Part shown: piece by piece, positions 9,253 through 30,155 of the stretch
Layout of the letters: every line of letters starts with the position of its first letter
Position numbering within the stretch: position 1 is the stretch's first letter
DNA from: Nocardioides ginsengisegetis
GTDB lineage: Bacteria > Actinomycetota > Actinomycetes > Propionibacteriales > Nocardioidaceae
NCBI RefSeq assembly: GCF_014138045.1
Contig: NZ_JACGXA010000001.1
Span: forward strand, 865,501 to 929,500
Reading direction: 5' to 3'
Length of the DNA: 64,000 bases
Notes under the pieces: generated by a model
What the model was told of the DNA's origin: nothing
The model's database searches: none
What the model saw: the letters and a program-made list of their open reading frames with translations, nothing else
Program-made: the position numbers and the translations under genes

Positions 9253-9254
9253 CC

Positions 9255-11576: not shown

Positions 11577-11680
11577 CCCGCGTCCAGCGTAGCGGCGCGA
11601 GACGGCTTCCCCGGGTCGGGGCGTGCTGCTCAGGGAGCGCCCGGGCGCACTCTGGGCAGCACGACTGCGCGGCATGTGCG

Positions 11681-11723
11681 GCCTGGTCGTCCCGGGAGGG
11701 TGGGGGGCCCGGGACGACCAGGC
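11681..11723. terminator. 16-bp hairpin terminator after the copper protein gene
   Basis: A perfect 16-bp stem (11681-11696 with 11708-11723) encloses an 11-nt G-rich loop, 18 nt after the stop of the leftward copper protein gene. It separates the globin/DivIVA/copper operon from the LuxR gene. Confidence 0.85.
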
Positions 11724-11741
11724 AGTCGAGGGGTCGGGCTC

Positions 11742-13774: not shown

Positions 13775-13776
13775 TG

Positions 13777-14946
13777 CTAACTCACCTGCTCGTTGAGGGC
13801 TGCGTCGGCGTTCTGCTCGCTCGCGGCCGCGTAGTAGAAGTGTTCGTACTTGATCTGCTCGGTCGGCATCCCCGCAGCGGTCAGCTGCTCGAGGGTGTGG
13901 GCGACCATCTGCGGCCCGCCGCACACCATCGCCGTACGTCCGCCGAGGTGCTGGCGGGACGCGATCGAGCCGACCTTGCCCCGGGTGCCCGGGAAGGACG
14001 GGTCGTCGGAGACGACCTCGGTGTACTCGAACCACGGCCGGTCCTTGGCGAGCTCGCGCAGGACCTTGCGGTCGTAGAGGTGCCAGGGCATGCGTACGCC
14101 GTGGAGCAGGTGCACCCGCGGGGCCGCACCGAGGCGCTGCCACTCGCGGTCGATCTGCTCCAGGACGCCGCGCAGGGGCGCCAGGCCGGTGCCGCCCGCG
14201 ACCATCAGGAGGTCGGTCGGGTCGTTCTCGGTACGGGTCAGCCGCTCACCGACGGGGGCGCCGAGCTTGACCGTGTCACCGGCCTTCAGGGACCGGGTCA
14301 ACGCGGTGCTGACCTGGCCGCCGTCGATCTGCTGCACGTGCAGGTCGATCGACCAGTCCTGGCGCGGCGCGTTGGCCGGGCTGAAGTAGCGCCACAGCCG
14401 GGGCCGTTGCGGGATCTCCATCGACAGCGACTGGCCGGGCAGGAACTTCAGCTCACGCTTCGGCTGGAGCCGGACCAGGGTGAGGTCCATCATCCGTCGC
14501 TCGACCTTGACCACGTCGGCGTCCCAGAAGTCCGGGGTGGTCTCCTGCGACATGTCGGCCGCCTCGACCATGATCCGGGCGATCACCTGGTAGGCCATCG
14601 CCCAGTCGGCCGCGAGGTCCTCGTCCCACTCGTCGCCCAGGAAGTGCGCCAGGGTCGCGCACAGCGAGGCGCCGACGGCGTTGTAGTGCTCGGTGATCAC
14701 GCCGTACTTGCGGTGGTCCCGCGCCAGGTGCTGGAGGAACGCCTCGTCGGTCTCGAGCTGGTCGACGTGGCTGACGACCCGACCGAGCGCGCTGACGAGC
14801 TTGTCCCGCTGGTTGGCCATCGACAGCGGGAACATCGACCGCACCTCAGGGTGCGCCAGGAACAGGTGCGAGTAGAAGTACAACGGCACGGCGTGCCCGT
14901 GCTTCGTCACCTGGTCCCAGCTGCGCTGCAGGGCAACTGTGTCCAT
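13777..14946 (-). CDS. Flavohemoglobin-like globin/FAD/NAD reductase
   Basis: This 389-residue protein has a globin domain (about residues 1-140) with a Tyr at the B10-like position (Y25 in LYFYSHLF) and proximal His H78 in LARDHRKYG. A ferredoxin-reductase FAD domain (~150-240) shows RYFS in place of the usual RxYS. The NAD domain has VAGGTGLAPLRG (~249-260) and MVCGGPQM. Flavohemoglobins turn NO plus O2 into nitrate using NAD(P)H. First gene of a three-gene operon with the DivIVA-like and NirK-like genes. ATG 14946 has only a weak RBS. Confidence 0.87.
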   Translation of the reverse strand: MDTVALQRSWDQVTKHGHAVPLYFYSHLFLAHPEVRSMFPLSMANQRDKLVSALGRVVSHVDQLETDEAFLQHLARDHRKYGVITEHYNAVGASLCATLAHFLGDEWDEDLAADWAMAYQVIARIMVEAADMSQETTPDFWDADVVKVERRMMDLTLVRLQPKRELKFLPGQSLSMEIPQRPRLWRYFSPANAPRQDWSIDLHVQQIDGGQVSTALTRSLKAGDTVKLGAPVGERLTRTENDPTDLLMVAGGTGLAPLRGVLEQIDREWQRLGAAPRVHLLHGVRMPWHLYDRKVLRELAKDRPWFEYTEVVSDDPSFPGTRGKVGSIASRQHLGGRTAMVCGGPQMVAHTLEQLTAAGMPTEQIKYEHFYYAAASEQNADAALNEQVS

Positions 14947-15326: not shown

Positions 15327-17474
15327 ATGCGTCGCTGGGCCGAGTTCGTGCTGCGGCACCGCAGGTGGGTCGGGGTGTTCTGGCTGCTCGTCCTGGTGGC
15401 CGGCGGCGCGTCGGCGAGCCGGACGAGTGACCGCCTGACCGTCGACTTCTCGCTGCCGGGGCAGCCGGGCACCGAGGCGACGAGCCTGATCGTGCAGGCC
15501 GTGCACAACGGCGGCAACACCACGCCGATGCTGGCGACGGTCACGATGCCCGAGGGCCAGACGATCACCGGCAACGAGGACGCGGTCGCGCAGGCGTTCG
15601 CGGCCATCGAGCAGGGCGTGCCGGACACGCGGGTCGTCGACGAGGCCAACACCGGGGACACGGCGTTCCGGACCGACGACGACCGCACGGCGTACGCCAT
15701 GGTCTTCTACCCCTTCCCGCAGACGTTCGACGCCAAGCCGCCCACGGAGCCGATCCGTACGGCGGTCGAGGGGGCCGTGCCGTCCGGGGCCGTGGTGGGG
15801 GTCACCGGCATCGACGCGCTCGCGATCGGCGACGACTCCGGCGGTCCCGGGGTGCTGACCGAGACCCTCCTCGGCGGACTGGGTGCGCTCCTCGTGCTGG
15901 CGTTCGTCTTCGCCTCGATGCTGGCGCTGCTGCCCCTGGCGGTCGCGGCGGTGTCGATCCTGGCGACGTTCCTGATGCTGCTGCCCCTGACCTACCTGAC
16001 CGACGTGTCGTTCATCGTGCAGTTCCTGGTCGCGCTGGTCGGGCTGGGCGTCGCGATCGACTACTCGCTGATCCTGGTCACCCGGTGGCGGGAGGAACGC
16101 GACCACGGCAAGAACAACCACGAGGCGGTCGTCGCGGCGATGGAGACCGCCGGGCAGGCCGTGCTCTTCAGCGGCCTGACCGTGGCGATCGGTCTCCTGG
16201 CGCTGATCGTGCTGCCGGTGCCCTTCATGCGCAGCATCGGCATGGGCGGCGCGCTGATCCCCTTCGCCAGCGTGATGGTGACGCTCTCGCTGACCCCCGC
16301 GATCCTCGGTGGCATCGGGCCGCGCGTGGACTGGCCCAAGATCCGCCACGAGAACAAGGCGAGCAAGGGCTGGACGAAGTGGGCCCGCCTCGTCGTACGC
16401 CGTCGCGTGGCCGCCCTCCTCGTGGCCCTGCTGGCGCTCGGCCTGCTGTTCGTGGCGTTCCTCGGCATCAAGATCGGCGCCGCCTCCTCCGACTCCCTGG
16501 CCCAGAGCGGCCCGGCGGTGACCGCGCTCCACACCCTCGAGGACGGCGGCATCACGACCGGGGCGCTCACGCCCATCGAGGTGCTGACCGAGAGCGACCA
16601 GGCGTCGTCGGTCGCGGCGGAGCTCGGCAAGATCCAGGGCATCGACGCCGCGCTGGTGTCGACCGGCGCGACGAGCACCGCCGACGGCCGGACCGTGGTG
16701 GTGCTGATCCCCGACGGCGAGACCGTCAACTCGCGCAGCGTCGAGGTGGTGCGGCGCGTCAAGGACGCCGCCGACGGCATGCCGGGCGTGCTCGGGGTGG
16801 CCGGCCTCGGCACCGCCCAGGTCGACTTCCTGCACGCGGTCTACGGCAACTTCCCGCTGATGCTCTCGCTGATCGCGCTGCTGACCTACGTGCTGCTCGT
16901 TCGGGCGTTCCGATCGCTGCTGCTGCCGCTCAAGGCGGTGATCCTCAACCTGGTCTCGCTCACCGCCGTCTACGGCGCGATGGTGCTGTTCTGGCAGGAC
17001 GGCCACGGCTCCGACGCGCTCTTCGGCATCTCCGAGACCGGCGCGGTGACGTTCTGGGTGCCGCTGATGGTCTTCGCGTTCCTCTTCGGGCTGTCGATGG
17101 ACTACGAGGTCTTCATCCTGGCCCGGATCCGGGAGGAGTACGACGCGGGGCACCCCACCGACTCCGCCGTCATCGAGGGCATCGGGCGCACCGGCCGGCT
17201 CGTCACGAGCGCCGCGCTGATCCTGTTCCTGGCGTTCGCGGCCCTCGCGTCGGGCCCGGGCACCGACCTGAAGGTGATGGCGACCGGCCTCGGCTTCGGC
17301 ATCCTGCTCGACGCGACCGTCGTCCGGTCCCTCCTGGTGCCGTCGCTGGTGTCCCTCTTCGGCCGGTGGAACTGGTACCTCCCCGACGGCGTCGCCCGCC
17401 TCCTGCGGGTCGAGCCGTCGCACGCCCACACCGAGCGGCCGGATCAGTCCACGTTCTCGCAGGTGGGGAAGTAG
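15327..17474 (+). CDS. MMPL family transporter
   Basis: A full-length 715-residue RND-type transporter: TM1 near residue 16, a first extracytoplasmic domain (~35-165), a six-helix bundle (~175-345), TM near 365, a second extracytoplasmic domain (~380-505), and the last helices up to ~690. The family motif FLFGLSMDYEVFILARIREEY sits near 590. Family members export lipids or hydrophobic drugs by proton motive force. AGGAG lies 8 nt before ATG 15327. Its last 31 nt overlap the convergent kinase gene. It is paralogous to the truncated gene at the left edge. Confidence 0.93.
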   Translation: MRRWAEFVLRHRRWVGVFWLLVLVAGGASASRTSDRLTVDFSLPGQPGTEATSLIVQAVHNGGNTTPMLATVTMPEGQTITGNEDAVAQAFAAIEQGVPDTRVVDEANTGDTAFRTDDDRTAYAMVFYPFPQTFDAKPPTEPIRTAVEGAVPSGAVVGVTGIDALAIGDDSGGPGVLTETLLGGLGALLVLAFVFASMLALLPLAVAAVSILATFLMLLPLTYLTDVSFIVQFLVALVGLGVAIDYSLILVTRWREERDHGKNNHEAVVAAMETAGQAVLFSGLTVAIGLLALIVLPVPFMRSIGMGGALIPFASVMVTLSLTPAILGGIGPRVDWPKIRHENKASKGWTKWARLVVRRRVAALLVALLALGLLFVAFLGIKIGAASSDSLAQSGPAVTALHTLEDGGITTGALTPIEVLTESDQASSVAAELGKIQGIDAALVSTGATSTADGRTVVVLIPDGETVNSRSVEVVRRVKDAADGMPGVLGVAGLGTAQVDFLHAVYGNFPLMLSLIALLTYVLLVRAFRSLLLPLKAVILNLVSLTAVYGAMVLFWQDGHGSDALFGISETGAVTFWVPLMVFAFLFGLSMDYEVFILARIREEYDAGHPTDSAVIEGIGRTGRLVTSAALILFLAFAALASGPGTDLKVMATGLGFGILLDATVVRSLLVPSLVSLFGRWNWYLPDGVARLLRVEPSHAHTERPDQSTFSQVGK

Positions 17475-19984
17475 CGGTTGTCCTCCAGGTGGGCCCGGAG
17501 GATCGGGTCCGCGCGGTGCCGGCCCAGGTTCCACGCCAGCCAGTCGTCGTCGGAGCCGGTCCCGTGGCCGGCGAGGGCGCACGGCACGGCGTCGCGCGGC
17601 AGCGTCGCGAGCACCGGCACGGCGTCCGCGGACAGGCCCTCGAGGTAGGACCAGTCGACCTTGCCGGTCGCGGCGTACCGGTCGATGTTGTGCTGCGCGA
17701 TCCACGCGTCCGGGTTGACGGCGGCCAGGGCCAGCAGCAGGCCGGCGCCGCTGAGCAGCGCGGCACGCGGCAGCCAGGCGGCCCTCAGGGTGATCCCGGC
17801 GGCGAGCAGCCCGACCACGAGCAGGCCCAGCCAGCCCTCGAACACGTCGACGAGCAGGCGCAGCCGGGTGAAGCCGTAGGCCTCCTGGTAGAGGTGCATC
17901 CGGTGCACCGCCGAGGCCACGACGACGAGCGTCAGCACGCACAGCAGGCCGAGCGAGCCACGCAGCCAGGCCACGTCGGACGGGGTCGCACGAGGTGCCT
18001 TGCGGGCGGCGGCGCCGACCACCAGCAGGGTCAGTGCGGTGGCGACGGTGAGCTGGCCGAAGCCCTGGTGGACGTACTCGGCGTAGGTCAGGCCGGTCGT
18101 GCGCTCGAGGTAGCCGTGGCCGCCGAAGATGACCGTCGCCTGCGCGGCGAGGAAGAGGAGGAAGACCGCGTCGACCAGCAGCACCGGCGCGAGCCACTCG
18201 TAGCGCTGGGCGACCGGTCGCGCCGGGCCGCTGCTCGTGTCGACCGAGGGCGGGTTGACGGCGAGGTACGCCGCGGCGAGCACCATGCCGCCGACGGCCA
18301 CCGCCAGGAACGCCCGGAAGACGAGCGTGTCGTGGTGGAAGTTGGGGACGAGCACGTCGACCCACGAGGCGAAGAGCGCGTCCGCGGAGGCGAAGAGCAG
18401 TCCGAAGACGAGCACGGCGAGGACCGACAGCGCGACCGTCCGGACGGCCGCCGTGGACCGCCCGGGACCACCGGTGCCGCGCAGTGACCGGCCGAGCCAG
18501 GGCAGGCCGCGCAGCCCGGCGAGCGGCCAGGCGATGCCGGCGAGCACGAAGCCCCGCAAGGTCCGGCCGTCGACCAGCCCGGCCATGCACACGGCACCGC
18601 CGGCGAACAGGCAGAGCGCCACGATCCACTGGGCGTCCCGGACGACCACGGTGCCGGCCAGGAGCAGGCAGAGCCCGGCGCAGGTCAGCGTGAACGGCGA
18701 GCGGCGGTGCACGCTCGAGGCGAGCAGGACAGCCCCGGCGGCCAGCAGGACCAGGAAGGTGCCCAGCCCGAAGCTGCGGAAGGGCAGGACCACGCTGGCG
18801 AGCAGGCCGACGCCCGCGCTCGCGAGCAGCGTGCGCCGGCTGCCGGGGACGCCGGCGTCGGGCCAGAAGCGGCCGAAGAGCGCGTCCAACGTCGGCTCGG
18901 GGACCCGGACGGCGGGCGGTGTCGGGGCGGGGATCGACATGGCCGGCTCCTCGGTCTCGGTTGTCCGGGTGGTGGTGGGGGTCAGGACGGCGGGCAGCTC
19001 GGCGCGCACGCGGGCGCCGGTGCGGCCCGGCTCGGGGTCGACGACGTGGATGGTGCCGCCGTGCAGGTCGGTGACCCAGCGGGCGATGGCCAGCCCGAGG
19101 CCGGTGCCGCCGCCACCCTCGGCGTCGGAGAGCGTGCCGAACCGCTCGAACACCCGGTCCCGGTCGGCGGCCGCGATCCCGGGCCCGTCGTCGTGGACCT
19201 CGAGCCGCCAGCCACCGTCCGTCCCTGCCGCGGTGACCCGGACGACGCCGCCCGTGGAGCTGTGCCGCGAGGCGTTGTCCAGGAGGTTGGCGACGAGCTG
19301 GTGGAGCCGCGCCGGGTCGGCCGGGACGCTGAGCGCGGGCGGGGTGACGCGCACGTCGTAGGTCACCTCGCGGCCGGTCGCCCGGGCCTCGGCCACGGCC
19401 CGGTCCAGGAGGTCTCCGACAGAGACGTCGGTGGGGGAGAGGTCGGTCTGCCCCGCGTCCACGCGGGCCAGGTCGAGCAGGTCCGAGGCGAGGGCCGAGA
19501 GCCGCTCGGCCTGGTCGAGCGCGGTGCGGAGCGCGACGGGGTCCGGCTCGGCGACCCCGTCGACGAGGTTCTCCAGCACCGCACAGAGCGCCGCGAGCGG
19601 GGTCCGGAGCTCGTGGCTGACGTTGGCCACCAGCTCGCGCCGCTGGCGGTCGACCTGTGCGAGGTCGGCGGCCATCCGGTTGAAGGCGCGGGCCAGCTCG
19701 CCGACCTCGTCACTCGAGGTGGCGGTGACGCGTACGTCGTGGTCGCCGCGGGCCATCCGGCCGGCGGCCGCGGTCATCTCGCGCAGCGGTGAGGTCATGC
19801 CGACGGCCAGCAGCTGGGTCACGCCCAGGGCCAGCGCCACGGTGACCGGGACGGCCAACCAGATGGGTACGCCGCCGCCGGAGCCGATCGCGCCGACCAC
19901 CGACGCGACCGTGACGCTGACCGCGACGAGGACGCCGAGCTTGACCTTGACCGAGCTGACGCGGTCGAGCACGGGCGTGCTCAT
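17444..19984 (-). CDS. Sensor histidine kinase fused to a DUF4173-like multi-TM domain
   Basis: One unbroken frame of 846 residues. N-terminal half: two TM helices (~15-36, 39-62), HAMP (~60-112), HisKA with H124 in NVSHELRTPL, and HATPase with N237, DDGPGI and GTGLGLAI up to ~330. From residue ~385 on it is a membrane protein with ten or more TM segments and a short soluble C-terminus, like DUF4173/DUF4153 proteins. The junction contains Met349 (codon at 18940) with GAGGAG 6 nt upstream, so a second product may be made. ATG 19984 overlaps the response regulator stop (ATGA). Signal and output are unknown. Confidence 0.87.
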   Translation of the reverse strand: MSTPVLDRVSSVKVKLGVLVAVSVTVASVVGAIGSGGGVPIWLAVPVTVALALGVTQLLAVGMTSPLREMTAAAGRMARGDHDVRVTATSSDEVGELARAFNRMAADLAQVDRQRRELVANVSHELRTPLAALCAVLENLVDGVAEPDPVALRTALDQAERLSALASDLLDLARVDAGQTDLSPTDVSVGDLLDRAVAEARATGREVTYDVRVTPPALSVPADPARLHQLVANLLDNASRHSSTGGVVRVTAAGTDGGWRLEVHDDGPGIAAADRDRVFERFGTLSDAEGGGGTGLGLAIARWVTDLHGGTIHVVDPEPGRTGARVRAELPAVLTPTTTRTTETEEPAMSIPAPTPPAVRVPEPTLDALFGRFWPDAGVPGSRRTLLASAGVGLLASVVLPFRSFGLGTFLVLLAAGAVLLASSVHRRSPFTLTCAGLCLLLAGTVVVRDAQWIVALCLFAGGAVCMAGLVDGRTLRGFVLAGIAWPLAGLRGLPWLGRSLRGTGGPGRSTAAVRTVALSVLAVLVFGLLFASADALFASWVDVLVPNFHHDTLVFRAFLAVAVGGMVLAAAYLAVNPPSVDTSSGPARPVAQRYEWLAPVLLVDAVFLLFLAAQATVIFGGHGYLERTTGLTYAEYVHQGFGQLTVATALTLLVVGAAARKAPRATPSDVAWLRGSLGLLCVLTLVVVASAVHRMHLYQEAYGFTRLRLLVDVFEGWLGLLVVGLLAAGITLRAAWLPRAALLSGAGLLLALAAVNPDAWIAQHNIDRYAATGKVDWSYLEGLSADAVPVLATLPRDAVPCALAGHGTGSDDDWLAWNLGRHRADPILRAHLEDNRYFPTCENVD

Positions 19985-20703
19985 CGGCTGTCCGCGGACG
20001 GGGTCTCGAGGGCGTAGCCGACGCCGTGCACGGTGCGCACCCGGTCGGCGCCGATCTTGCCGCGCAGCGCCTTCACGTGGCTGTCCACCGTGCGGGTCCC
20101 CGTCGCGCCCTGCCAGCCCCAGACCTCGGCGTACAGGTGCTCGCGCGTCAGCACGGTGCCCGGGCTGGCGGCCAGGCAGAGCAGCAGGTCGAACTCGGTC
20201 GGGGTCAGGTGCACCTCGTCCCCGGTGACCCAGACGCGGCGGGCGGCCGCGTCGACCCGCAGGTCGCCGAGCCGGTCCAGGGAACCGGCCGAGCGGGTGG
20301 CGAGCTCGGCGGCCCGCTCGACACGGCGGAGCAGGGCCGCGACCCGGGCCACGAGCTCACGCATCCGGAAGGGCTTGGTGAGGTAGTCGTCGGCGCCCAC
20401 GCCCAGGCCGACCAAGATGTCCGCCTCGTCGTCGCGGGCGGTGAGCATCAGCACCGGGACCGGCCGGTCGGCCTGGATCCGGCGGCAGACCTCGTGGCCG
20501 TCGAAGCCGGGGAGCATCACGTCCAACAGCACCAGGTCCGGCGCCGTCTCCGCGCAGAGCCGCACGGCGCCGGGGCCGTCGAAGGCCTGGACGACCTCGT
20601 AGCCCGACGAACGGAGCCGGTCGGTGACGGCCTGGTTGATGACCGGCTCGTCCTCCACCACGAGGATGCGCGGCGCGGCGACGGCGGTCCCGGTGACTGG
20701 CAT
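19981..20703 (-). CDS. OmpR/PhoB-type response regulator
   Basis: A 240-residue two-component regulator. The receiver domain (~12-122) has acidic DE near 17-18, phospho-acceptor Asp in VLLDVMLPG (near 56), and Lys in YLTKPF; the C-terminal winged helix (~145-235) has LTPTEFDLLL and TVDSHVKALRGKIG. The cognate kinase follows with a 4-nt ATGA overlap. No RBS is visible, but TACGCT lies 6 nt before ATG 20703, suggesting a leaderless message. Confidence 0.93.
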   Translation of the reverse strand: MPVTGTAVAAPRILVVEDEPVINQAVTDRLRSSGYEVVQAFDGPGAVRLCAETAPDLVLLDVMLPGFDGHEVCRRIQADRPVPVLMLTARDDEADILVGLGVGADDYLTKPFRMRELVARVAALLRRVERAAELATRSAGSLDRLGDLRVDAAARRVWVTGDEVHLTPTEFDLLLCLAASPGTVLTREHLYAEVWGWQGATGTRTVDSHVKALRGKIGADRVRTVHGVGYALETPSADSR

Positions 20704-20767: not shown

Positions 20768-21376
20768 CTACCCCTGCGCGGCCAGCGCCGCTCCTTCGGC
20801 GAAGAACGCCGCCAGGTCCGGGATCTCCGACAGGGGGTGGGCCGCCCCGAAAGGGGCGTTCCAGAACGGCCCGGTGTGCTGGTCCGGCCTCCACGGACCG
20901 ACGTAGGCGTAGGGGACGCCGAGGAAGTCGTCGCCGGGGGAGACGCCGTAGTTCACCTCGTCGCGGGTGATGCCCAGGTCGAAGTGCTCGGGCCAGAGCA
21001 CCCGGTCGAGGTCCGGGGCGAACGCGGTCATGGCCTCCGCCCCGGCCCTGAACCCCTCCGCGATCTCGGCGGCCGCCGCCGGGTCGAGCCGGAGCGGGTG
21101 CTCCGCCGTCAGGCCCCAGCCTCCGGAGTAGACGTCGTCCAGGGAGTGCGGGACCACCCCGGCCCCGGCCCCGACCTCGGCGATGGTGCGCCCGTCGAGG
21201 GGGACCGCCCAGCCGCCGACGACCAGGGACGTGCCCTCCACCCGCACGGAGGGCTCGGCGACCGTGCCGAACCCTCCGGGGGTGACGCGCAACCTGATCG
21301 TCCCGCTCACGACGTGCTGCGGTCCGGCGAGCAGCAGCTCGGCGACGGCGTGGAGCGACAACCGGGTGGTCTGCAC
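20768..21376 (-). CDS. Conserved hypothetical protein
   Basis: A soluble 202-residue protein with no signal peptide. The N-terminal third is strand-rich (VSGTIRLRVTPGGFG, SVRVEGTSLVVGGWAVPLDG), the middle is helical, and the C-terminus has many aromatic and Pro residues (VGPWRPDQHTGPFWNAPFG). I do not recognise a named domain; the composition is like proteins annotated only as hypothetical in related actinomycetes. Start GTG 21376 lies 4 nt after the protease stop, so both are probably in one operon. It is followed by 64 nt of spacer before the response regulator. Confidence 0.7.
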   Translation of the reverse strand: MQTTRLSLHAVAELLLAGPQHVVSGTIRLRVTPGGFGTVAEPSVRVEGTSLVVGGWAVPLDGRTIAEVGAGAGVVPHSLDDVYSGGWGLTAEHPLRLDPAAAAEIAEGFRAGAEAMTAFAPDLDRVLWPEHFDLGITRDEVNYGVSPGDDFLGVPYAYVGPWRPDQHTGPFWNAPFGAAHPLSEIPDLAAFFAEGAALAAQG

Positions 21377-21380
21377 GATG

Positions 21381-23126
21381 TCACCGTACGGCGGCTCCGG
21401 CGTTGACCATGCCCGCGCCGTAGGCGTCGGCGAAGCGGATCGGGTGCCGGAAGTCGAGGTGGCACCAGCCCGTCGGGCACGGCCCGGCGGTCGTCGAGTC
21501 GGTCTTGTTCGCCGGGTCGTTCGGGCCCGTCAGGTTCACCATGTCGGTCCGGGCGGTGGCCCGGAGCTTGGCGAGCAGCCCGTTCGGGTTGCCCTGGAGC
21601 TCGGGGTGGGCCGCCAGGGTCAGCGCGGCGACGCCCGTCGCGTTGGGCGAGGACATCGAGGTGCCCTGCAGCCACCCGAACGCCGAGCCGTTGACCTTGA
21701 AGCAGGCGAAGGTCAGGAAGCTCGCGAGCGACGGATCCTGGCAGATCTCCCCGTTGGCGGTCAGCGCGCCGAGGGTGCCCCACCCGCCGTAGAGGATGTC
21801 ACCGGCGCCACCGTCGTAGCGCGGGATGTTGAACTTCCGCGCGCCGCCCGGGGCGGCGATGTCCACGCGCGACCCGTAGCTGGAGTAGTAGGTCAGCTGG
21901 TCGCGTGCGCCGACCGCCGAGGCCGGCCACTTGATCGCCGGGTCGACCGAGGCCGGTTGCGGGGCGATCGCGTTGTTCGTGGCCGAGACCATGACGACCC
22001 CGGGCACGCCGGCCGGCACCTCGAGGAGGCCGCGGTAGTCGTTCTCGGCGACCGAGGTCCCGGGGATGATGTCCGCGATCCCCTCGGGTCCGCTGTCGAC
22101 CCGGCCGACCCCGGCCAGGCCGTTCCAGGTGACCCGGTTGACCCGGACGTGCTCGTTGCCGGCGGAGGCGAAGATCGCCGTGCCGTTGGCACGGCAGTAG
22201 TTCGTGGCGTCCACCCAGAGCTGGTAGTCGCCGGTGTCGAGGACCGGGTCGTCGTAGCCGCCGATCGACATGTTGATCACGTCGGCGTCGGCGTCGCAGG
22301 CGCGGATCATGCCGTCGACGATCCAGGTGGTCAGCCCACCACCGAGCGTCGTCGACAGCGTCTTGAAGCCCATCACCGTCACGTTCGGCGCGACGCCGTT
22401 GGAGGCGAAGCCGTTGACGGCGCCGGCGATCCGGCTGCCGACCCACGTGCCGTGGCCCTCGGTGTCCCCGCTCGAGCAGTCCTTCTCACCGAGGCCGGGT
22501 CCGAACTGTCGCGTCAGCACGTTGCAGGGGATCGTGTTGGCCGAGTCCTGGCCGTCGTAGTTGGCGGCAAGCTCCTTGTGCGAGCCGTCCAGGCCGCTGT
22601 CGACCACCGCCACCCGCACCGTGCGGTCGCCCAGGGTGGTGGCCCAGGCGGCCGGCACGTTCATCCGGTTGTCGTCCCACTGGAGGATGCCCTCGGGGTT
22701 GGTCTCGCCCGCGAACGACGACAGGTTGTGCCACGGGTCGGGGACCGGGTCGGTGCCGGGGCTGCCCAGCTGGGGGCTCCCCGTGGTGGCCGCCGCACCC
22801 GACGAGTCGGGCTCACCGACGCTGATCCACTTGTCGAGCCAGACGCTCTTGACCTTCGAGTTGCCCTTCACGTCCGAGCGGAACGCCCCGTTGGTGGAGA
22901 CCACCGCGAGCGCGCCGATCTTGCTGAGGTCGGTCGTGACGACGCCGCCGCTCGCCTTCACGGCGGCGTACATCTGGTCACGCGTGGTGCCCGGGGCGAA
23001 CCGGACCACGGTGACGTTCCAGGGGTTCGTCGACGACGTGGGCTGGGCCTGGGCCACGGTGGTGGCGGCGGCCGGCATCCCGATCGCGGCGACGGCGATG
23101 GCCGAGGCCAGGAGGAATCTGCGCAT
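21381..23126 (-). CDS. Secreted subtilisin-like serine protease (S8)
   Basis: A 581-residue exported subtilase. Residues 1-28 are a signal peptide ending near AQAQ; ~35-100 resemble an I9-type inhibitory propeptide. Catalytic residues are D176 (VAVVDSGLDGSH), H225 (EGHGTWVG) and S490 (GTSMSSPNATG), with oxyanion Asn N324 (SAGNEH). A ~100-residue C-terminal part contains Cys. ATG 23126 is chosen because the signal peptide follows at once; GTG 23132 is an alternative. It likely degrades proteins outside the cell or processes surface proteins. It reads away from the hybrid kinase operon and is followed by the hypothetical gene. Confidence 0.93.
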   Translation of the reverse strand: MRRFLLASAIAVAAIGMPAAATTVAQAQPTSSTNPWNVTVVRFAPGTTRDQMYAAVKASGGVVTTDLSKIGALAVVSTNGAFRSDVKGNSKVKSVWLDKWISVGEPDSSGAAATTGSPQLGSPGTDPVPDPWHNLSSFAGETNPEGILQWDDNRMNVPAAWATTLGDRTVRVAVVDSGLDGSHKELAANYDGQDSANTIPCNVLTRQFGPGLGEKDCSSGDTEGHGTWVGSRIAGAVNGFASNGVAPNVTVMGFKTLSTTLGGGLTTWIVDGMIRACDADADVINMSIGGYDDPVLDTGDYQLWVDATNYCRANGTAIFASAGNEHVRVNRVTWNGLAGVGRVDSGPEGIADIIPGTSVAENDYRGLLEVPAGVPGVVMVSATNNAIAPQPASVDPAIKWPASAVGARDQLTYYSSYGSRVDIAAPGGARKFNIPRYDGGAGDILYGGWGTLGALTANGEICQDPSLASFLTFACFKVNGSAFGWLQGTSMSSPNATGVAALTLAAHPELQGNPNGLLAKLRATARTDMVNLTGPNDPANKTDSTTAGPCPTGWCHLDFRHPIRFADAYGAGMVNAGAAVR

Positions 23127-23308
23127 GCGCACATCAGAGCACCGGAGTGGGGCCTCTCCATCGCCTCAATTGGGGTGCCTCGGACCGACGCCCGCCGACG
23201 CGCATTTGAGCCACCTGGGCGATTGCCCCCTCCGGCGAACCTGAGGAAACTCGAAGGGTCGTCGACACGGCGTCACCGGTGACCGAGGTCGACGGTGGGG
23301 AGGAAGCG

Positions 23309-25555
23309 ATGGTCGAGCCAGCCACGGCCCCGGGTGCCGTCAGCGCCGCGGACCACGAGCGCCTCCTGCAAGACCACGCCGCCCTCCTGGACCAGTTCGA
23401 GGCGGCCAACGAGGTCCTCTCGGCCATGGGGCGCTGGGCCGGCGACCCCGACGCCGTCCTGACCACCCTCGTCGAGAGCGCCCGCCGGTTGTGCTCGGCA
23501 CAGGCGGCCCACCTCTACGTGCTGGAGGACGGGGTCTACCGGCTGATCAAGGCCGTCGGGCTCAGCGAGGAGTCGATCGCCTACATCGCCGAGCACCCGA
23601 TGGCGGTGGACCGGGAGACCCTGATCGGGCGGGTGGGGCTGGACCGCACCACCCAGCAGATCGCCGACGTGCTGGCCGACCCCGACTACGGCGCCCACGA
23701 CCTCCAGCGCGTGGCCGGCTTCCGCACCACCATGGGTGCGCCGATGCTGCTCGACGAGCGGGTGGTGGGGGCGCTCACCGTGTGGCGCGACGTCGTGAAC
23801 CCCTTCGACGAGCGGGAGATGGCCATCGTCTCCGCGTTCGCGGCGCAGGCCGCGCTGGCGGTCAACGGCGTGCAGCTGGTGCAGCAGCTCGAGGCACGGA
23901 GCGCCGAGCTGGCGCGCAAGGTGGAGGAGCTCGAGGCGCTGCGCCAGGTGGGCGAGGCCGTCAACTCGAGCCTGGACGTCGAGAACGTGCTCGCCACGAT
24001 CGCCATGCACGCGGTCGAGCTCTCCGGCACCGACGGCGGCTCGATCATGGAGTACGCCGACCGGGACCGCTGCTTCGTGGTGCGCAGCGTCTACCGGACC
24101 GAGCCGGCCGTGGTCGAGCGGCTCCGCTCCATCCGCATCGGCCTCGACGAGACGCTCGTCGGTCGCGCCGCCCGCGAGCGGCGACCGCTGGCGGTGACCG
24201 ACCTGGCCCGGGTCGACCTCGACCCGCACCTGCAGATCCTCTTCGACGACGGCTGGCGGTCGCTCGTCGCGGTCCCGATGCTGCGCGAGGGGCAGGTCGT
24301 GGGCTCGCTGATCGTGCGACGCAAGCGCCCCGGCGACTTCACCGAGGAGGTCCTCGACCTGCTGGAGACCTTTGCCGACCAGTCCAGCCTGGCTCTCGTC
24401 AACGCCCAGCTCTACCGCGAGCTGAAGCAGCAGAGCGCCGAGCTGGAGCTGGCGAGCCGTCACAAGTCGGAGTTCCTCGCGAGCATGTCCCACGAGCTGC
24501 GGACGCCGCTCAACGCCGTCCTCGGCTTCTCCGAGGTGCTCCTCGAGCGGATGTTCGGCGACATCAACGAGCGTCAGGAGGAGTACCTCCGCGACATCCA
24601 CGGCTCGGGCCGGCACCTCCTCGAGCTGCTCAACGAGATCCTCGACCTGTCCAAGGTCGAGGCCGGGCGGATGGAGCTGGAGTACTCGGCCCTCGAGCTG
24701 CGGCCGCTGCTGGAGGACGCCGCGGCCATGTTGCGCGAGCGGGCCGCCGGACACGCGATCACGCTCACCGTCGACGTCGCCGACGACGTCGACCCGCTCT
24801 TCACCGACGGGCTGCGGCTCAAGCAGGTCGTGCTCAACCTGATGACCAACGCCGTGAAGTTCACCGGCGACGGGGGCTCGGTGACCGTGCGCGCGGTGCG
24901 CGGCCCCGCCGAGGTCGACATCTCCGTGACCGACACCGGCATCGGGGTCCCCGAGGAGGACCGTGAGCGGATCTTCGAGTCCTTCCAGCAGGGTGGGCGC
25001 GGCAGCTCGCGGGAGGAGGGCACCGGGCTGGGCCTGACGCTCTCGCGGCGCCTCGTGGAGCTGCTGGGCGGCCGGATGTGGCTGGTCACCGAGGTCGGCG
25101 TCGGGAGCACCTTCGGCTTCTCGCTCCCCGATCGCACCGGCGGGGCCGTCGGGGCCGTGGGGGGACGTGATCCGGCCGGGCTCGCGGGGGACGTCGTGGT
25201 CATCGAGGACGACCGGCCCTCCCTGGACCTGCTCACGGCCTACCTCTCCGGCGCGGACCTCCAGGTCACGGCGGCCCGCGACGGGCAGTCCGGCCTCGAG
25301 GCGGTCCGGCGGGTGCACCCTGCCGCGGTGCTGCTGGACATCCGGCTGCCCGGCATCGACGGCTGGTCGGTGCTCGAGGCCCTCAAGTCCGAGCCGGAGA
25401 CCCGGGACATCCCCGTCATCGTGGTCTCGATCGTCGACGAGCGGTCGAGGGGCGTCGCGATGGGCGCCGCGGCGTACCTCGTCAAGCCGGTGCGCCGCGA
25501 CGACCTGCTGTCCGCCCTGGCCTCGGTGGGCGCGCCGGTGGGGGAGCCGTCGTGA
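23309..25555 (+). CDS. GAF-GAF hybrid sensor histidine kinase with receiver
   Basis: A cytosolic 748-residue hybrid kinase with no TM segment. Order: GAF 1 (~45-185), linker coiled coil (~185-218), GAF 2 (~222-370), HisKA with H395 in MSHELRTPLN, HATPase (~498-607) with N514, DTGIG and GTGLGL, and a C-terminal receiver (~628-740) with D677 and K726. It senses an intracellular ligand through GAF and may pass phosphate to the next two receivers. GGGGAGGA lies 4 nt before ATG 23309. The stop overlaps the next start as GTGA. First gene of a chained operon. Confidence 0.92.
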   Translation: MVEPATAPGAVSAADHERLLQDHAALLDQFEAANEVLSAMGRWAGDPDAVLTTLVESARRLCSAQAAHLYVLEDGVYRLIKAVGLSEESIAYIAEHPMAVDRETLIGRVGLDRTTQQIADVLADPDYGAHDLQRVAGFRTTMGAPMLLDERVVGALTVWRDVVNPFDEREMAIVSAFAAQAALAVNGVQLVQQLEARSAELARKVEELEALRQVGEAVNSSLDVENVLATIAMHAVELSGTDGGSIMEYADRDRCFVVRSVYRTEPAVVERLRSIRIGLDETLVGRAARERRPLAVTDLARVDLDPHLQILFDDGWRSLVAVPMLREGQVVGSLIVRRKRPGDFTEEVLDLLETFADQSSLALVNAQLYRELKQQSAELELASRHKSEFLASMSHELRTPLNAVLGFSEVLLERMFGDINERQEEYLRDIHGSGRHLLELLNEILDLSKVEAGRMELEYSALELRPLLEDAAAMLRERAAGHAITLTVDVADDVDPLFTDGLRLKQVVLNLMTNAVKFTGDGGSVTVRAVRGPAEVDISVTDTGIGVPEEDRERIFESFQQGGRGSSREEGTGLGLTLSRRLVELLGGRMWLVTEVGVGSTFGFSLPDRTGGAVGAVGGRDPAGLAGDVVVIEDDRPSLDLLTAYLSGADLQVTAARDGQSGLEAVRRVHPAAVLLDIRLPGIDGWSVLEALKSEPETRDIPVIVVSIVDERSRGVAMGAAAYLVKPVRRDDLLSALASVGAPVGEPS

Positions 25556-25935
25556 GTGCGCCGCGGATCCTCGTCGTCGAGGACAACCCGAAGAACCTCA
25601 AGCTGGTCCGCGACGTCCTGGAGCACTTCGGCTACGAGGTCATCGAGGCGACGACCGGCGAGGACGGCGTGCGCCTGGCGGTGGAGGCCACGCCCGACCT
25701 GGTGCTGATGGACCTCCAGCTCCCGGGCATCGACGGCACCGAGGCGCTGCGGAGGATCCGCGCCGGCGCGGACAACCAGGACGTCCCGGTCGTGGCGGTG
25801 ACGGCGTTCGCGATGAACGACGACCGTGACCGGGCCTTCGAGTCGGGCTTCAACGGCTACGTCGAGAAGCCGATCAGCGTGCGGTCCCTGCCCCAGCAGG
25901 TCAGCGACTACCTCCGGCTGGGGCGGGCGCCGTGA
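25552..25935 (+). CDS. Single-domain response regulator (DivK/CheY type)
   Basis: The 127-residue protein consists of a receiver alone: acidic E10-D11, phospho-acceptor D54 in VLMDLQLPGIDG, Thr in VTAFA and K106 in YVEKPIS. It lacks an output domain, so it likely relays phosphate or regulates the kinase, as DivK does. Start GTG 25552 and stop at 25933-25935 both overlap neighbours by 4 nt. Confidence 0.93.
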   Translation: MSAPRILVVEDNPKNLKLVRDVLEHFGYEVIEATTGEDGVRLAVEATPDLVLMDLQLPGIDGTEALRRIRAGADNQDVPVVAVTAFAMNDDRDRAFESGFNGYVEKPISVRSLPQQVSDYLRLGRAP

Positions 25936-27065
25936 CCGGCGAGGGCGGGGCCCGGGTGCTGGTGGTCGACGACCAGCCGGCCAACATCCGGCTGCTCGAG
26001 GCGATCCTCGTGCCGCGGGGCTACACGGTGTTGACGGCGGTGTCCGGCGAGGAGGCGCTCGAGGTCATCGCCACCTCCGACGTCGACCTGGTGCTGCTGG
26101 ACATCGTGATGCCGGGCCTGGACGGCTACGAGGTGTGCCGGAGGATCCGCGAGCAGGCGGACACGGCCTACCTGCCGGTCGTGATGGTCACGGCCAGCGG
26201 CGACGAGCAGAAGGTGCGGGCGCTCGAGGCGGGCGCCGACGACTTCCTGGGCAAGCCGGTCAACCAGAGCGAGCTGCTGGCCCGGGTCGCCTCGCTGGCG
26301 CGGATCAAGCGCTACCAGGACACGATCAGGCGCCAGGCCGCGGAGCTGGCCGCGTGGAACCGCGAGCTGGAGTCCCGGGTGGAGACCCAGGTCGCGGAGC
26401 TCGAGCGGATGGGCCGGCTGCGGCGCTTCCTCTCCCCGCAGCTGGCCGAGCTGATCGTGGACTCCGGCGACGAGTCGTTCCTCGAGAGCCACCGGCGCGA
26501 GATCGTCGTGGTCTTCTGCGACCTGCGCGGCTTCACGACCTTCGCCGAGGCGAGCGAGCCGGAGGAGGTGATGGGTGTCCTGAAGGACTACCACGAGGCC
26601 CTCGGCGACCTGATCTTCCGGTTCGAGGGCACCCTCGAGCGGTTCGCCGGCGACGGGTTGATGGTCTTCTTCAACGACCCGGTGCGTTGCGACGACGGCC
26701 CGCTGCGCGCCATCCGGATGGCGCTGGCGATGCGGACCCGGGTGCGGGGCCTGGCCGAGGCGTGGGCGCGGCAGGGGCACGACCTCGCCCTGGGGATCGG
26801 CATCGCGCAGGGCTACGCGACGCTCGGCAAGATCGGCTTCGACGGCCGGCTCGACTACGCCGCGATCGGCAGCGTCACCAACCTGGCCTCGCGGCTGTGT
26901 GACGCCGCCGAGCCCTGGCAGGTCCTGGTCTCCGAGCGCGTCTTCTCCGCGGCCGGGCCGCTCGTGGTCGGGGAGGACGCCGGCGCCCGCGAGCTGCGCG
27001 GCTTCAGCCGGCGGGTCACCACGTTCAGTGTCCGGGGCGTCGACAACTCACGGACCGTGTCGTGA
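25932..27065 (+). CDS. Response regulator with class III nucleotidyl cyclase output
   Basis: A 377-residue fusion of a receiver (~7-120; D57 in VLLDIVMPGLDG, K108), a coiled-coil linker (~128-160) and a class III cyclase domain (~188-345). In the cyclase the two metal-binding Asp are D197 (FCDLRGFT) and D241 (FAGDGLMVFF), and the transition-state Asn and Arg are N317 and R321 (VTNLASRL), so it looks active. It probably makes cAMP or cGMP when phosphorylated; which one cannot be told from sequence. GTG 25932 overlaps the receiver stop by GTGA. Confidence 0.92.
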   Translation: MTGEGGARVLVVDDQPANIRLLEAILVPRGYTVLTAVSGEEALEVIATSDVDLVLLDIVMPGLDGYEVCRRIREQADTAYLPVVMVTASGDEQKVRALEAGADDFLGKPVNQSELLARVASLARIKRYQDTIRRQAAELAAWNRELESRVETQVAELERMGRLRRFLSPQLAELIVDSGDESFLESHRREIVVVFCDLRGFTTFAEASEPEEVMGVLKDYHEALGDLIFRFEGTLERFAGDGLMVFFNDPVRCDDGPLRAIRMALAMRTRVRGLAEAWARQGHDLALGIGIAQGYATLGKIGFDGRLDYAAIGSVTNLASRLCDAAEPWQVLVSERVFSAAGPLVVGEDAGARELRGFSRRVTTFSVRGVDNSRTVS

Positions 27066-28651
27066 CCGGCGACCTGTGGACCGCGCCGGTCGCCGCTCCG
27101 GCTGTGCTCTCCGACCTGTCCGAGGAGGAGCGCTACCGCCGCTTCGACGAGCTGCAGGCCAGGATGGCCGGGGTCTGGGAGGCGATGCGTCTCAACCACG
27201 ACGACGAGTCGGTGGTCGTGGTCCCCTCGATCACGCTGGACCGGGCGGTCGCCGCGAGCGGCAGCCTGACGCAGGCCTACGAGGAGCGCTTCCTGTTCCT
27301 GCTCGTGCTGCTGCGCCAGCCGCGGCTCCGGATGGTCTACGTGACCTCGATGCCGATCGCCCCCGAGATCATCGAGTACTACCTCGCGCTGCTGCCCGGG
27401 GTGATCCCCAGCCACGCCCGGGCCCGGTTGACGCTGGTGAGCGTCAACGACGCGTCGCCGCGGTCGCTGAGCGAGAAGCTGCTCCAGAGGCCCCGGCTGC
27501 TCGCGCGGATTGCGGCCCTGGTGCCCAACCCGGCCCGGTCGCACCTGCTGCCCTACAACACCACCGAGCTCGAGCGCGACGTGGCGCTCTCGCTCGGCAT
27601 CCCGATGTACGGCGCCGACCCCCGCCTGGCCCCGCTGGGCAGCAAGAGCGGCTGCCGGCGGATGTTCGCGGAGATCGGCGTACCCCATCCGCTGGGCGTG
27701 GAGGACCTGCGCACCCTCGACGACCTGGCCGACGCCGTCGTCACCCTGCGCGCCGAGCGGCCCGCGATGGACAGCGTGATCGTCAAGCTCAACGAGGGGG
27801 TCTCGGGCGCGGGCAACGCGGTCGTCCGCCTGGGTGGCCTGCCCCCGCCCGGGTCTGCGGAGGAGCGCGCGGAGGTGGTGCAGCGGCTGCACGCGATGGA
27901 GCTGGAGTCGCCGGACACGCCGCTCGACGTCTACCTGGCCAAGCTGGCCGAGGGCGCCGGGATCGTGGAGGAGCGGATCGTCGGGGCCGAGCTGCGCAGT
28001 CCCAGCGTGCAGCTGCGGGTGCTGCCCGGCGGTGATGTCGAGCTGCTCTCGACGCACGACCAGCTGCTCGGCGGCGCCAGCGGACAGAGCTACCTGGGCT
28101 GCGTCTTCCCGGCGGCGCCGGAGTATGCCCGGACGATCACGCGGCACGCCGAGACGATCGGGCACCGCCTCGCCCGGAGCGGTGCGCTCGGCCGGTTCGC
28201 GGTCGACTTCGTGGTCGTGCGCAGCGTGACCGGCGAGTGGACGGCGTACGCGATCGAGCTGAACCTGCGCAAGGGCGGCACCACCCACCCGTTCCTGACG
28301 CTGCAGTTCCTCACCGACGGGCGCTACGACCCGGGGACCGCGCTGTTCCTCACCCCGCGCGGCCACGAGAAGCACCTCGTCGCCACCGACCACCTCGAGT
28401 CCGAGCAGCTGTGCGGCCTCGTGCCGGCCGACCTGTTCGACATCGTCGCCCGCCACGGGCTGCACTTCGACCCCTCGCGCCAGGTCGGGATCGTCTTCCA
28501 CATGATCAGCTGCCTGACCGAGCACGGCCGGATCGGCCTCACCGCCGTCGGCGACACCGCGGCCGAGGCGGACCGCCGCTACCGCGACGCACAGCGGATC
28601 CTGCTGGAGGAGGCGCGCCTGTCCCTCCGGGAGCCGGCGCTCCCCGGGTGA
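27062..28651 (+). CDS. PGM1-related ATP-grasp peptide ligase-like protein
   Basis: A soluble 529-residue protein. The N-terminal part (~1-190) is an alpha/beta region with conserved VYVTSMPIAPEIIEYYL. The ATP-grasp fold follows: GSKSGCRRMFAE (~196), the nucleotide loop VIVKLNEGVSGAGNA (~239-253), VEERIVG, and a metal-binding ELNLRKGGTTHP (~399-410). The C-terminal 90 residues match the PGM1-type end. PGM1 is the ligase that joins a carboxylate to peptides in pheganomycin biosynthesis; this protein likely forms amide bonds, but its substrates are unknown. It overlaps both neighbours by GTGA. Confidence 0.85.
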   Translation: MTGDLWTAPVAAPAVLSDLSEEERYRRFDELQARMAGVWEAMRLNHDDESVVVVPSITLDRAVAASGSLTQAYEERFLFLLVLLRQPRLRMVYVTSMPIAPEIIEYYLALLPGVIPSHARARLTLVSVNDASPRSLSEKLLQRPRLLARIAALVPNPARSHLLPYNTTELERDVALSLGIPMYGADPRLAPLGSKSGCRRMFAEIGVPHPLGVEDLRTLDDLADAVVTLRAERPAMDSVIVKLNEGVSGAGNAVVRLGGLPPPGSAEERAEVVQRLHAMELESPDTPLDVYLAKLAEGAGIVEERIVGAELRSPSVQLRVLPGGDVELLSTHDQLLGGASGQSYLGCVFPAAPEYARTITRHAETIGHRLARSGALGRFAVDFVVVRSVTGEWTAYAIELNLRKGGTTHPFLTLQFLTDGRYDPGTALFLTPRGHEKHLVATDHLESEQLCGLVPADLFDIVARHGLHFDPSRQVGIVFHMISCLTEHGRIGLTAVGDTAAEADRRYRDAQRILLEEARLSLREPALPG

Positions 28652-29295
28652 GGTCCGAGGTGCTCCGGGTCTGGTACGTCGCCTACGGGTCCAACCTCGG
28701 GTTCGCCCGGTTCCGCTGCTACCTCGCGGGCGGCCGGCCGCACGGTGGCTCCCGGGTCTACGCCGGCTGCCGGGACCCCGCCGATCCCGCCGAGGTGGCA
28801 GCCCTGGAGGTGCCCGGCGGGCTCGTGTTCGCGGGGGAGTCCGGCGTGTGGGGCGGCGCGATGGCCTTCTACGACCCGCACGCACCGGGCCGGGTCGCCT
28901 GCCGGGCCTACCTGGTCACCGCCGAACAGCTCGCGGACGTCGCGGCGCAGGAGATGCGGCGGCCCCCGGGCGGCGACTTCGCGCGCGACCTGTCGGGGAT
29001 CCTCGCGGACGTCGAGTCCGTGCACACGATGGGGCCGGGGCGCTACGAGACGATCACCCGGCTGGGGGAGCGGGCCGGGGCGCCGATGTTCACCGTGACC
29101 CACCACGACGCCGGGGGACTGGATCCCGCGGCGCCGAGCGTGGCCTACCTGCGCAGCATCGCGGCGGGTCTGCGCGAGGCCCACGGCTGGGACGCGGCGC
29201 GGATCGCCGCCTATCTGGAGCCCGCCCCGGGGATCGCTGCCGGCTGGAGCCGGGAGGAGCTGACGGCGCTCGCAGGCGAGGGCGCGCCACGGTGA
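28648..29295 (+). CDS. Gamma-glutamylcyclotransferase-like protein
   Basis: A 215-residue protein with the GGCT substrate-loop motif YGSNL (VWYVAYGSNLGFARF) near residue 12, then CYLAGGRPHGG and GGLVFAGESGVWGGAMAFY, the usual order of this actinobacterial family, which is often labelled histone deacetylase without support. GGCT enzymes cleave gamma-glutamyl compounds to 5-oxoproline. Start GTG 28648 overlaps the ligase stop by 4 nt. Its place directly after an ATP-grasp ligase suggests a role in making or breaking a glutamyl conjugate; this is inference. Confidence 0.78.
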   Translation: MRSEVLRVWYVAYGSNLGFARFRCYLAGGRPHGGSRVYAGCRDPADPAEVAALEVPGGLVFAGESGVWGGAMAFYDPHAPGRVACRAYLVTAEQLADVAAQEMRRPPGGDFARDLSGILADVESVHTMGPGRYETITRLGERAGAPMFTVTHHDAGGLDPAAPSVAYLRSIAAGLREAHGWDAARIAAYLEPAPGIAAGWSREELTALAGEGAPR

Positions 29296-29348
29296 CCGGC
29301 GTACGCTCGGAGTGAGGCTCCGGGCCCATGGAGCCCGCGGAGGTCGCC

Positions 29349-30155
29349 ATGGATGCGCTGCTGTTGACGCTCGGTTCGCTGGGGGTGCTGGCGGGTGTGG
29401 GCTGGGCGACCAGCGTGCGCGTCGTCCAGCAGATCGAGCGCGGTGTGGTGTTCCGGCTGGGCCGCGCCCAGGACGACGTACGCCGCCCTGGCCTCACGTT
29501 CCTGGTGCCGGTCGTGGACCGGATGAAGCGGGTCAACATGCAGGTCGTGACCATGCCGGTCCCCGCCCAGGACGGCATCACCCGCGACAACGTGACGGTG
29601 CGCGTCGACGCCGTCGTCTACTTCCGGGTGGTCGACCCGATGCGGGCGGTGATCCAGGTCCAGGACTACGTCTTCGCCATCTCGCAGGTCGCGCAGACCT
29701 CGCTGCGCTCCATCATCGGCAAGAGCGAGCTCGACGACCTGCTGTCCAACCGGGAGCGGCTCAACCAGGGCCTCGAGGTGATGCTCGACAACCCCGCTGC
29801 CTCCTGGGGGATCGAGATCGACCGGGTGGAGATCAAGGACGTCGCCCTGCCCGAGACGATGAAGCGGTCGATGTCCCGCCAGGCCGAGGCCGAGCGGGAG
29901 CGCCGGGCCCGGATCATCACCGCCGACGGCGAGTTCCAGGCCTCGCAGCGGCTCTCCGAGGCCGCCGCGGCGATGGAGTCCACACCCGCCGCGCTCCAGC
30001 TGCGGCTGCTCCAGACCATGGTGGAGGTGGCGGCCGAGAAGAACTCCACGCTGGTGCTGCCCTTCCCCGTCGAGATGCTGCGCTACTTCGAGGCCGTCGC
30101 GACCGGCGTGCCCGCCGCCCAGCGGGTCGACGGCGTCGCCCACGAACCCGGGTGA
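29349..30155 (+). CDS. SPFH/band 7 (stomatin-like slipin) membrane protein
   Basis: The 268-residue protein has one N-terminal hydrophobic segment (~3-22), an SPFH domain (~25-190) with VVQQIERGVVFRLGR and DAVVYFRV, and a helical C-terminal region (AEAERERRARIITADGEF) that typically oligomerises. Slipins assemble rings at membranes and protect or scaffold membrane proteins. Start ATG 29349 is chosen for GGAGG 5 nt upstream; ATG 29328 is in frame but lacks an RBS. It is 53 nt downstream of the GGCT-like gene and may belong to the same transcript. Confidence 0.9.
   Translation: MDALLLTLGSLGVLAGVGWATSVRVVQQIERGVVFRLGRAQDDVRRPGLTFLVPVVDRMKRVNMQVVTMPVPAQDGITRDNVTVRVDAVVYFRVVDPMRAVIQVQDYVFAISQVAQTSLRSIIGKSELDDLLSNRERLNQGLEVMLDNPAASWGIEIDRVEIKDVALPETMKRSMSRQAEAERERRARIITADGEFQASQRLSEAAAAMESTPAALQLRLLQTMVEVAAEKNSTLVLPFPVEMLRYFEAVATGVPAAQRVDGVAHEPG

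Follow-up and report, generated by a model that had tools for sequence, protein, structure and literature searches.

Organization of the Locus

The window analyzed here is a stretch of 64,000 nucleotides (contig NZ_JACGXA010000001.1, positions 865,501 to 929,500) from the 4.46-Mb, six-contig genome of Nocardioides ginsengisegetis; positions given without a locus number refer to it. Its forward strand carries an operon in which a hybrid sensor kinase, a lone receiver, and a receiver-cyclase are chained to a putative ATP-grasp amide ligase and to an optional protein of the GGCT fold. The genes and their junctions are as follows:

23279..25555, forward strand: hybrid sensor kinase gene (758 amino acids; GTG start at 23279 or in-frame ATG at 23309)
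25552..25935, forward strand: single-domain response regulator gene (127 amino acids)
25932..27065, forward strand: receiver-class III nucleotide cyclase gene (377 amino acids)
27062..28651, forward strand: ATP-grasp amide ligase gene of the BesA/PGM1/IQCH superfamily (529 amino acids; predicted function)
28648..29295, forward strand: GGCT-fold protein gene, optional fifth member (215 amino acids)
25552..25555, forward strand: GTGA overlap of kinase and receiver (4 nucleotides)
25932..25935, forward strand: GTGA overlap of receiver and receiver-cyclase (4 nucleotides)
27062..27065, forward strand: GTGA overlap of cyclase and ligase (4 nucleotides)
28648..28651, forward strand: GTGA overlap of ligase and GGCT-like gene (4 nucleotides)

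The original prediction of a five-gene chain with GTGA at all four junctions is borne out by these coordinates and by 4-nucleotide overlaps that recur across 46 loci.

Conservation in Actinobacteria

A genome scan with the ligase returned 103 relatives, the best 80 of which were kept as loci; homologs of the five proteins were mapped on these and on further loci, with duplicate contigs removed. The cyclase gene followed by the ligase gene, in fixed order, occurs in 46 loci, the window included. Four-nucleotide overlaps join kinase to receiver in 25 of 29 loci, receiver to cyclase in 25 of 32, kinase directly to cyclase in eight of the ten loci lacking a separate receiver, cyclase to ligase in 40 of 46, and ligase to GGCT-like gene in 10 of 20. 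Ten Mycolicibacterium-group loci with a kinase have no separate receiver. A kinase homolog is present in 43 of the 46 loci, 39 of them above the set threshold; the four below it are L002 (cut by a contig end), L020 and L041 (apparently with one GAF domain), and L040 (inverted), and at L017 and L019 the DNA ends at a contig edge. At L040, which shares a contig with L127, the kinase and receiver genes are inverted and placed after the cyclase, ligase, and GGCT-like genes (6866-14248), so that the set is together and its order broken.

The operon is one of soil actinobacteria. By record title, its loci come from Nocardioidaceae, Kribbellaceae, Mycobacteriaceae, Microbacteriaceae, Intrasporangiaceae, Propionibacteriaceae, and Jiangellaceae (this last locus with its kinase side cut off), as well as in unplaced Pseudonocardiales; many of the loci are metagenome assemblies. 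In a tree of 128 ligases, built by a quick method with Shimodaira-Hasegawa-like approximate likelihood ratio (SH-aLRT) support from rows chosen by similarity to the query and with some long branches unsure, the 48 rows that have operon context group as a single clade (support 100) and need one change of state; the context labels of five duplicate rows and of L026, which has no upstream DNA, were set by hand. The four genes from kinase to ligase make up a conserved unit with a single origin. The single five-gene system first proposed stands for these four genes and not for the GGCT-like gene, which adjoins the ligase in only 20 of 44 loci.

Among 198 genomes of the window's family, 13 have a ligase (E ≤ 1e-30), six a close ligase (at least 60%), and seven the cyclase, which adjoins the close ligase in all six genomes that have one. 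Ligases of any kind occur in 15 of 246 genomes of a class sample (E ≤ 1e-30) and in 44 of 346 of a phylum sample (E ≤ 1e-60). The operon is therefore patchily distributed, much lost or moved between lineages.

Sensor Kinase and Lone Receiver

By Pfam the kinase reads GAF-GAF-HisKA-HATPase_c-receiver, and the lone regulator is a single receiver domain. The kinase has no strongly hydrophobic stretch (maximum 19-residue hydropathy 1.62) and is therefore probably cytosolic. The HisKA His, HATPase boxes, and receiver Asp of a hybrid two-component kinase are all present: His405, Asn524, Asp552, and Gly581 are kept in 39 of 39 loci, and the receiver Asp687 in 36. The other three have Glu at position 687, which may lock or bypass that receiver. 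Asp54 and Lys106 of the lone receiver are kept in 32 of 32 loci.

Nucleotide Cyclase

The third gene encodes a receiver joined to a class III cyclase domain (Pfam). Its receiver retains Asp57 in 44 of 44 loci, and its catalytic domain the metal-binding Asp197 and Asp241 with the transition-state Asn317 and Arg321, as in class III cyclases generally, in 46 of 46. The usual base-selecting pair, Lys with Asp or Thr, is replaced in the window by Arg237 and Ala310; across the 46 loci the first position is R in 38, H in seven, and Q in one, and the second is A in 39, S in six, and T in one. A passage of PMC4215837 describes adenylate cyclases as keeping Lys and Asp, and guanylate cyclases as having Glu at the first position. 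That position holds neither the Lys nor the Glu in any of the 46 loci, so neither an adenylate nor a guanylate cyclase fits, and because the base pocket is unusual the product of the enzyme is a real question. The catalytic residues, described at the outset as intact, are so in the kinase, in the ATP-grasp ligase, and at the metal Asp, Asn, and Arg positions of the cyclase; with its base-selecting pair replaced, the cyclase is only partly canonical. Receiver-fused class III cyclases under two-component control are exemplified by cyanobacterial CyaC, with which the operon has the chain of kinase, receiver, and cyclase in common; among solved structures its cyclase domain is nearest to that of CyaB. 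Unlike the CyaC type, the window cyclase has Arg/Ala in place of Lys with Asp or Thr, and its operon includes a ligase.

A Mycobacterium sp. metagenome-assembled genome (locus L029, 6118-7959) has a 613-amino acid open reading frame (ORF) with both GAF domains and the cyclase and with no kinase or receiver domain, followed by the ligase and GGCT-like genes through ATGA and TTGA overlaps. GAF-GAF-cyclases without kinase domains number at least 22 among the 120 proteins listed of 7,932 significant ones, so this fusion is not a lone assembly artifact; the 22 fall into two groups of 72-97% and 50-51% identity. No such fusion appeared in 384 genomes of the class at E ≤ 1e-110, in a weak screen that scored the best three candidates per genome. 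Genomic context is known for the L029 fusion alone. This fusion gives the strongest evidence that the signal taken up by the GAF domains is intended for the cyclase. The Arg base signature is present in all 22 GAF-GAF-cyclases examined and is therefore not special to the operon.

Ligase

The ligase carries the IQCH-type ATP-grasp and PGM1_C domains of Pfam, the latter above its cut-off (44 bits vs 22.5); PreAtp-grasp falls below (21.5 bits vs 27.5; 22.7 bits in the genome search). Lys195, Lys242, Glu303, Asp382, Glu399, Asn401, and Arg403 are kept without exception in the 46 operon ligases and across the 35 rows of alignment A2. The closest relative with an organism name, from Nocardioides sp. 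LS1, is 97% identical. In structure comparison, which drew on Foldseek's own top 1000 chains (families outside those lists are not excluded), the best match is BesA (8yi6, Z 41.8) and the second-best entry is 3wvq (Z 30.5), which, like 3wvr, we take to be PGM1. BesA has the same fold over nearly the full length, with 26% identity in the structural alignment. The enzyme was originally described as PGM1-related, a description that PGM1_C and the shared fold sustain, although BesA, a glutamate ligase, matches better.

BesA is the L-propargylglycine--L-glutamate ligase of Streptomyces (8yi6; NF042917) and acts in beta-ethynylserine biosynthesis; the window enzyme differs in being coupled to a kinase and a cyclase. 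With PGM1, a peptide ligase of pheganomycin biosynthesis, it has the PGM1_C domain and fold in common. Judged from sequence and fold, the window ligase probably joins glutamate to another amino acid. There is no room for a precursor peptide gene between the overlapping operon genes (the flanks were not searched for short precursors).

Relatives of the ligase are very common, with 7,983 of 7,999 scored candidates significant and many phyla represented; as far as found, products are known only for BesA and PGM1, both distant. Of the contexts found, the actinobacterial operon links such a ligase most clearly to a sensor and an intracellular messenger, and it therefore gives a way into the role of these ligases.

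The other 80 of the 128 tree ligases come from Verrucomicrobiota, Chloroflexota, Acidobacteriota, and other Actinomycetota, among others, and by rough gene calls most are apparently lone genes. Near 11 of the 80, receiver, kinase, or cyclase domains have weak matches (25-44% identity). The nearest of these are, at 488 bases from its ligase, a divergent gene with a cyclase domain (L075:4115-7723) and, at 0.9 kb, a receiver (L182); a receiver-HATPase gene stands directly before a third ligase (L078:7140-7991). The neighbors at L078 and L075 hint that a link between signaling and ligases of this kind may exist in other lineages too. Clustering of flanking ORFs gave no convincing ligase neighbor common to different phyla: in Verrucomicrobiota, an upstream DEAD-box helicase and AI-2E transporter were taken as local synteny, and a large cluster that seemed to link phyla was rejected because, once the actinobacterial operon loci are set aside, its members are all ORFs that lie over the ligase gene.

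At two tree sisters (L045:2626-3438 and L046:9528-10319) a GATase_4 gene, class II amidotransferase-like, directly follows a ligase that has no kinase context; the family presumably includes the gamma-glutamyl-cleaving EgtC. No other locus among the 81 of L001-L081 has a homolog, and 46 further loci gave one weak match (L143; 24%, opposite strand, about 340 bases from the ligase). That this gene is a stand-in for the GGCT-like gene is suggestive, not more. The contig that carries the L045 ligase bears the title Bifidobacterium breve and is probably mis-binned, the ligase grouping with that of an Acidimicrobiia metagenome-assembled genome; L146 has two convergent ligase paralogs on one short contig.

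GGCT-Like Protein

The fifth protein matches no Pfam family at E ≤ 10 except DUF6457 at 0.17, and none in NCBIfam at E ≤ 0.001. Its fold is that of gamma-glutamyl cyclotransferase (GGCT; Foldseek TM-score 0.35-0.51 on the query), with 15-19% identity to human GGCT (3cry, 2rbh, 2i5t) and B. subtilis YkqA (2qik). In the YGSN loop and beyond it, Asn16, Gln101, and Glu102 are invariant in 48 rows, and Tyr13, Gly14, and Ser15 are kept in at least 90%. A Trp-Glu spacing of 34 is found in both proteins (W64-E98 in human, W68-E102 in the query), and human E98 is, we assume, the catalytic residue; the equivalence of Glu102 and E98 is drawn from fold and spacing, not from profile alignment. The earlier assignment of this protein as GGCT-like is upheld, as a prediction, by the fold and by a Glu at the catalytic spacing. 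Public records call the protein (28648-29295) and its homologs "histone deacetylase," which looks like a propagated misannotation.

Of the loci, 44 have more than 900 bases of downstream sequence; in 20 of these the ligase gene is directly followed by the GGCT-like gene. A search of 23 genomes without an adjacent copy (22 with the ligase, and G358) found it elsewhere in four and not in 19; the search covered 21 of the 24 assessable loci without an adjacent gene and L032, which is not assessable, with L002, L003, and L012 left out. The genome of L012 (contig G295) has a GGCT-like gene on another contig, and L003 has a GGCT-like fragment. In the family sample the gene is present in 48 of 198 genomes and stands beside a close ligase in only five. 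Its presence beside the ligase needs seven changes among 45 operon tree rows, 23 of which have the gene (three labeled by hand).

One subgroup, 27 of 44 rows of the GGCT-like family, holds all 23 adjacent proteins and four of the 21 stand-alone proteins sampled, and GGCT-like and ligase distances correlate (r 0.917, 20 loci); where present, the GGCT-like gene is therefore probably functionally tied to the ligase. Among stand-alone GGCT-like genes, 20 neighborhoods of 43 genomes show no partner common beyond related genomes, and the neighbors of the four in the operon subgroup (three loci scanned) belong to unrelated families.

An add-and-remove logic of this kind is known from butirosin biosynthesis, in which the ligase BtrJ adds a gamma-glutamyl group and the GGCT-superfamily cyclotransferase BtrG removes it, the group being a protecting group in an antibiotic cluster; the window operon differs in having no carrier protein or antibiotic gene and in that its remover is optional. 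A passage of PMC8430323 names only BtrH and BtrG.

Proposed Function and Alternatives

The case is built on gene set, order, coupling, common descent, folds, and catalytic residues, all of them observed. All parts of the operon are of known kinds; for their combination, conserved across seven named families, no description was found in a library of open-license papers, an absence that is weak evidence.

We infer from sequence a signal path from a GAF ligand through the kinase to the cyclase, a product of gamma-glutamyl type, and its removal by the GGCT-like protein. A small cytosolic ligand would bind the GAF pair of the kinase, which would relay phosphate to the receiver-cyclase, either by way of its own and the lone receiver or directly; the receiver domain there, once phosphorylated, would switch the cyclase to make a cyclic mononucleotide whose base we do not assign. 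In parallel, the BesA-like ligase would use a carboxylate, in the likeliest case the gamma-carboxyl of glutamate, to acylate an amino acid or amine at its amino group. If present, the GGCT-like protein would cleave gamma-glutamyl amides to 5-oxoproline and a free amine, and so limit or recycle the product. The cyclic nucleotide may control the ligase, or both may serve one response independently. As a whole explanation, a translationally coupled, co-inherited signaling-plus-synthesis operon of four core genes has, in our estimate, a probability of about 0.55.

Several points weigh against it. Its footing is sequence, not biochemistry. On the BesA equivalog NF042917 the ligase scores 117.4 bits, far below the curated cut-off of 750, and the family-invariant Asp130 and Lys139 are absent in BesA by alignment; because of these differences and the low identity, its substrates may differ from those of BesA. 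None of the 80 ligases outside the clade has an ortholog of the operon kinase or cyclase, or a GGCT-like gene, in its flanking DNA, so the ligase does not need the operon kinase and cyclase. Conversely, L130 (G358) has kinase, receiver, and cyclase without a ligase, the next gene, by rough gene calls, being convergent. The GGCT-like gene lies outside the core, which occurs without it in about half of the operons; none was found in 18 of the 22 ligase-bearing genomes without an adjacent copy, several of them incomplete (that of L019 is 1.7 Mb). Its family matches human GGCT weakly by profile (E 0.005), with the two Glu residues not paired, and a correlation of distances is also expected from plain vertical descent. 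Because the gene is optional, and missing beside the ligase in 24 of 44 loci, the proposal that the operon makes and breaks a conjugate applies at most to some lineages. The neighborhood comparison suggested at the outset likewise gives a divided answer: the ligase stays with signaling genes within the clade, and ligases of the wider family, like most GGCT-like genes, stand apart from them.

Pure co-regulation, in which the cascade controls distant genes through cyclic-nucleotide receptors and the ligase merely shares the transcript, is possible if somewhat unlikely. The window's own genome has five cNMP-binding and ten further class III cyclase domains, so the cyclic messenger may act elsewhere, and both the ligases without a cascade and the cascade without a ligase at G358 are in keeping with this; but a tie of ligase and cyclase across a clade of seven named families, mostly through a 4-nucleotide overlap, is tight for mere co-regulation. 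We find it rather doubtful that operon accretion has brought together a ligase making some other amide (a peptide or an amino-acid-specialized-metabolite conjugate, as with PGM1) and a GGCT-like protein acting on an unrelated gamma-glutamyl compound. PGM1_C above its cut-off, 3wvq as the second structural entry, the missed BesA cut-off, and a GGCT-like gene that is optional and usually elsewhere in the family sample speak for this account; the large Z margin of BesA over 3wvq, the correlated distances, and the single subgroup holding all adjacent GGCT-like proteins speak against it. An improbable further reading has the ligase product, a dedicated conjugate of gamma-glutamyl type, itself as an intracellular signal, which the GAF pair of the kinase or of the GAF-GAF-cyclase fusion would read, the Arg/Ala cyclase would relay as a second, possibly non-canonical cyclic nucleotide, and the GGCT-fold enzyme would erase in half of the lineages.

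Phage defense of the Pycsar kind, with a pyrimidine cyclase and the ligase as effector, is very improbable. We know of no Pycsar system with receiver and kinase input. PADLOC PycC models do match the cyclase domain (best E 6.5e-20), and EaPycC, in the passage of PMC11224242 that treats it, makes cyclic CMP (cCMP) using F100, R142, and Q144 to select CTP, with D102 and D146 as metal ligands. Matched by spacing from the metal Asp residues only, Phe195 and Arg237 fall at the positions of F100 and R142, Arg237 lying, like R142, four residues before the second metal Asp; Q144, however, is replaced by Ala239 (A in 15 and T in 31 of the 46 loci), and CyaB is a far better structural match than PaPycC (3r5g, E 3.2e-35, vs 6yii, E 0.0002). 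PADLOC found neither PycTM nor PycTIR among the kinase, cyclase, ligase, GGCT-like, and SPFH proteins, further flanking ORFs having been scanned with Pfam only, and the ligase is no PADLOC family there. That the five genes cluster by accident in one genome has a negligible chance: the patchy distribution (a close ligase in six of the 198 genomes from the family) would suit it, and the conserved gene order, the overlaps, and the common origin of 46 loci refute it for the four core genes.

Flanking Genes

Two further features border the operon upstream:

21381-23132, reverse strand: subtilase gene, divergent from the operon
23133..23278, no strand: gap between the subtilase gene and the first operon gene, the likely place of the operon promoter

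A sigma-70 consensus scan of 23133..23278 found no promoter. A forward-strand ORF at 21183-23282, which ends in a GTGA overlap, was rejected as a member of the chain, being a shadow of the reverse-strand subtilase gene. Downstream, an SPFH/Band 7 gene (29328-30155) was rejected as a sixth member, with a homolog in only two relatives (L047 and L194). Farther upstream, an 846-amino acid ORF on the reverse strand (17444-19984) joins HAMP-HisKA-HATPase_c to DUF4153, an unusual kinase fusion, and overlaps an OmpR-type regulator gene (19981-20703, reverse strand) by 4 nucleotides.

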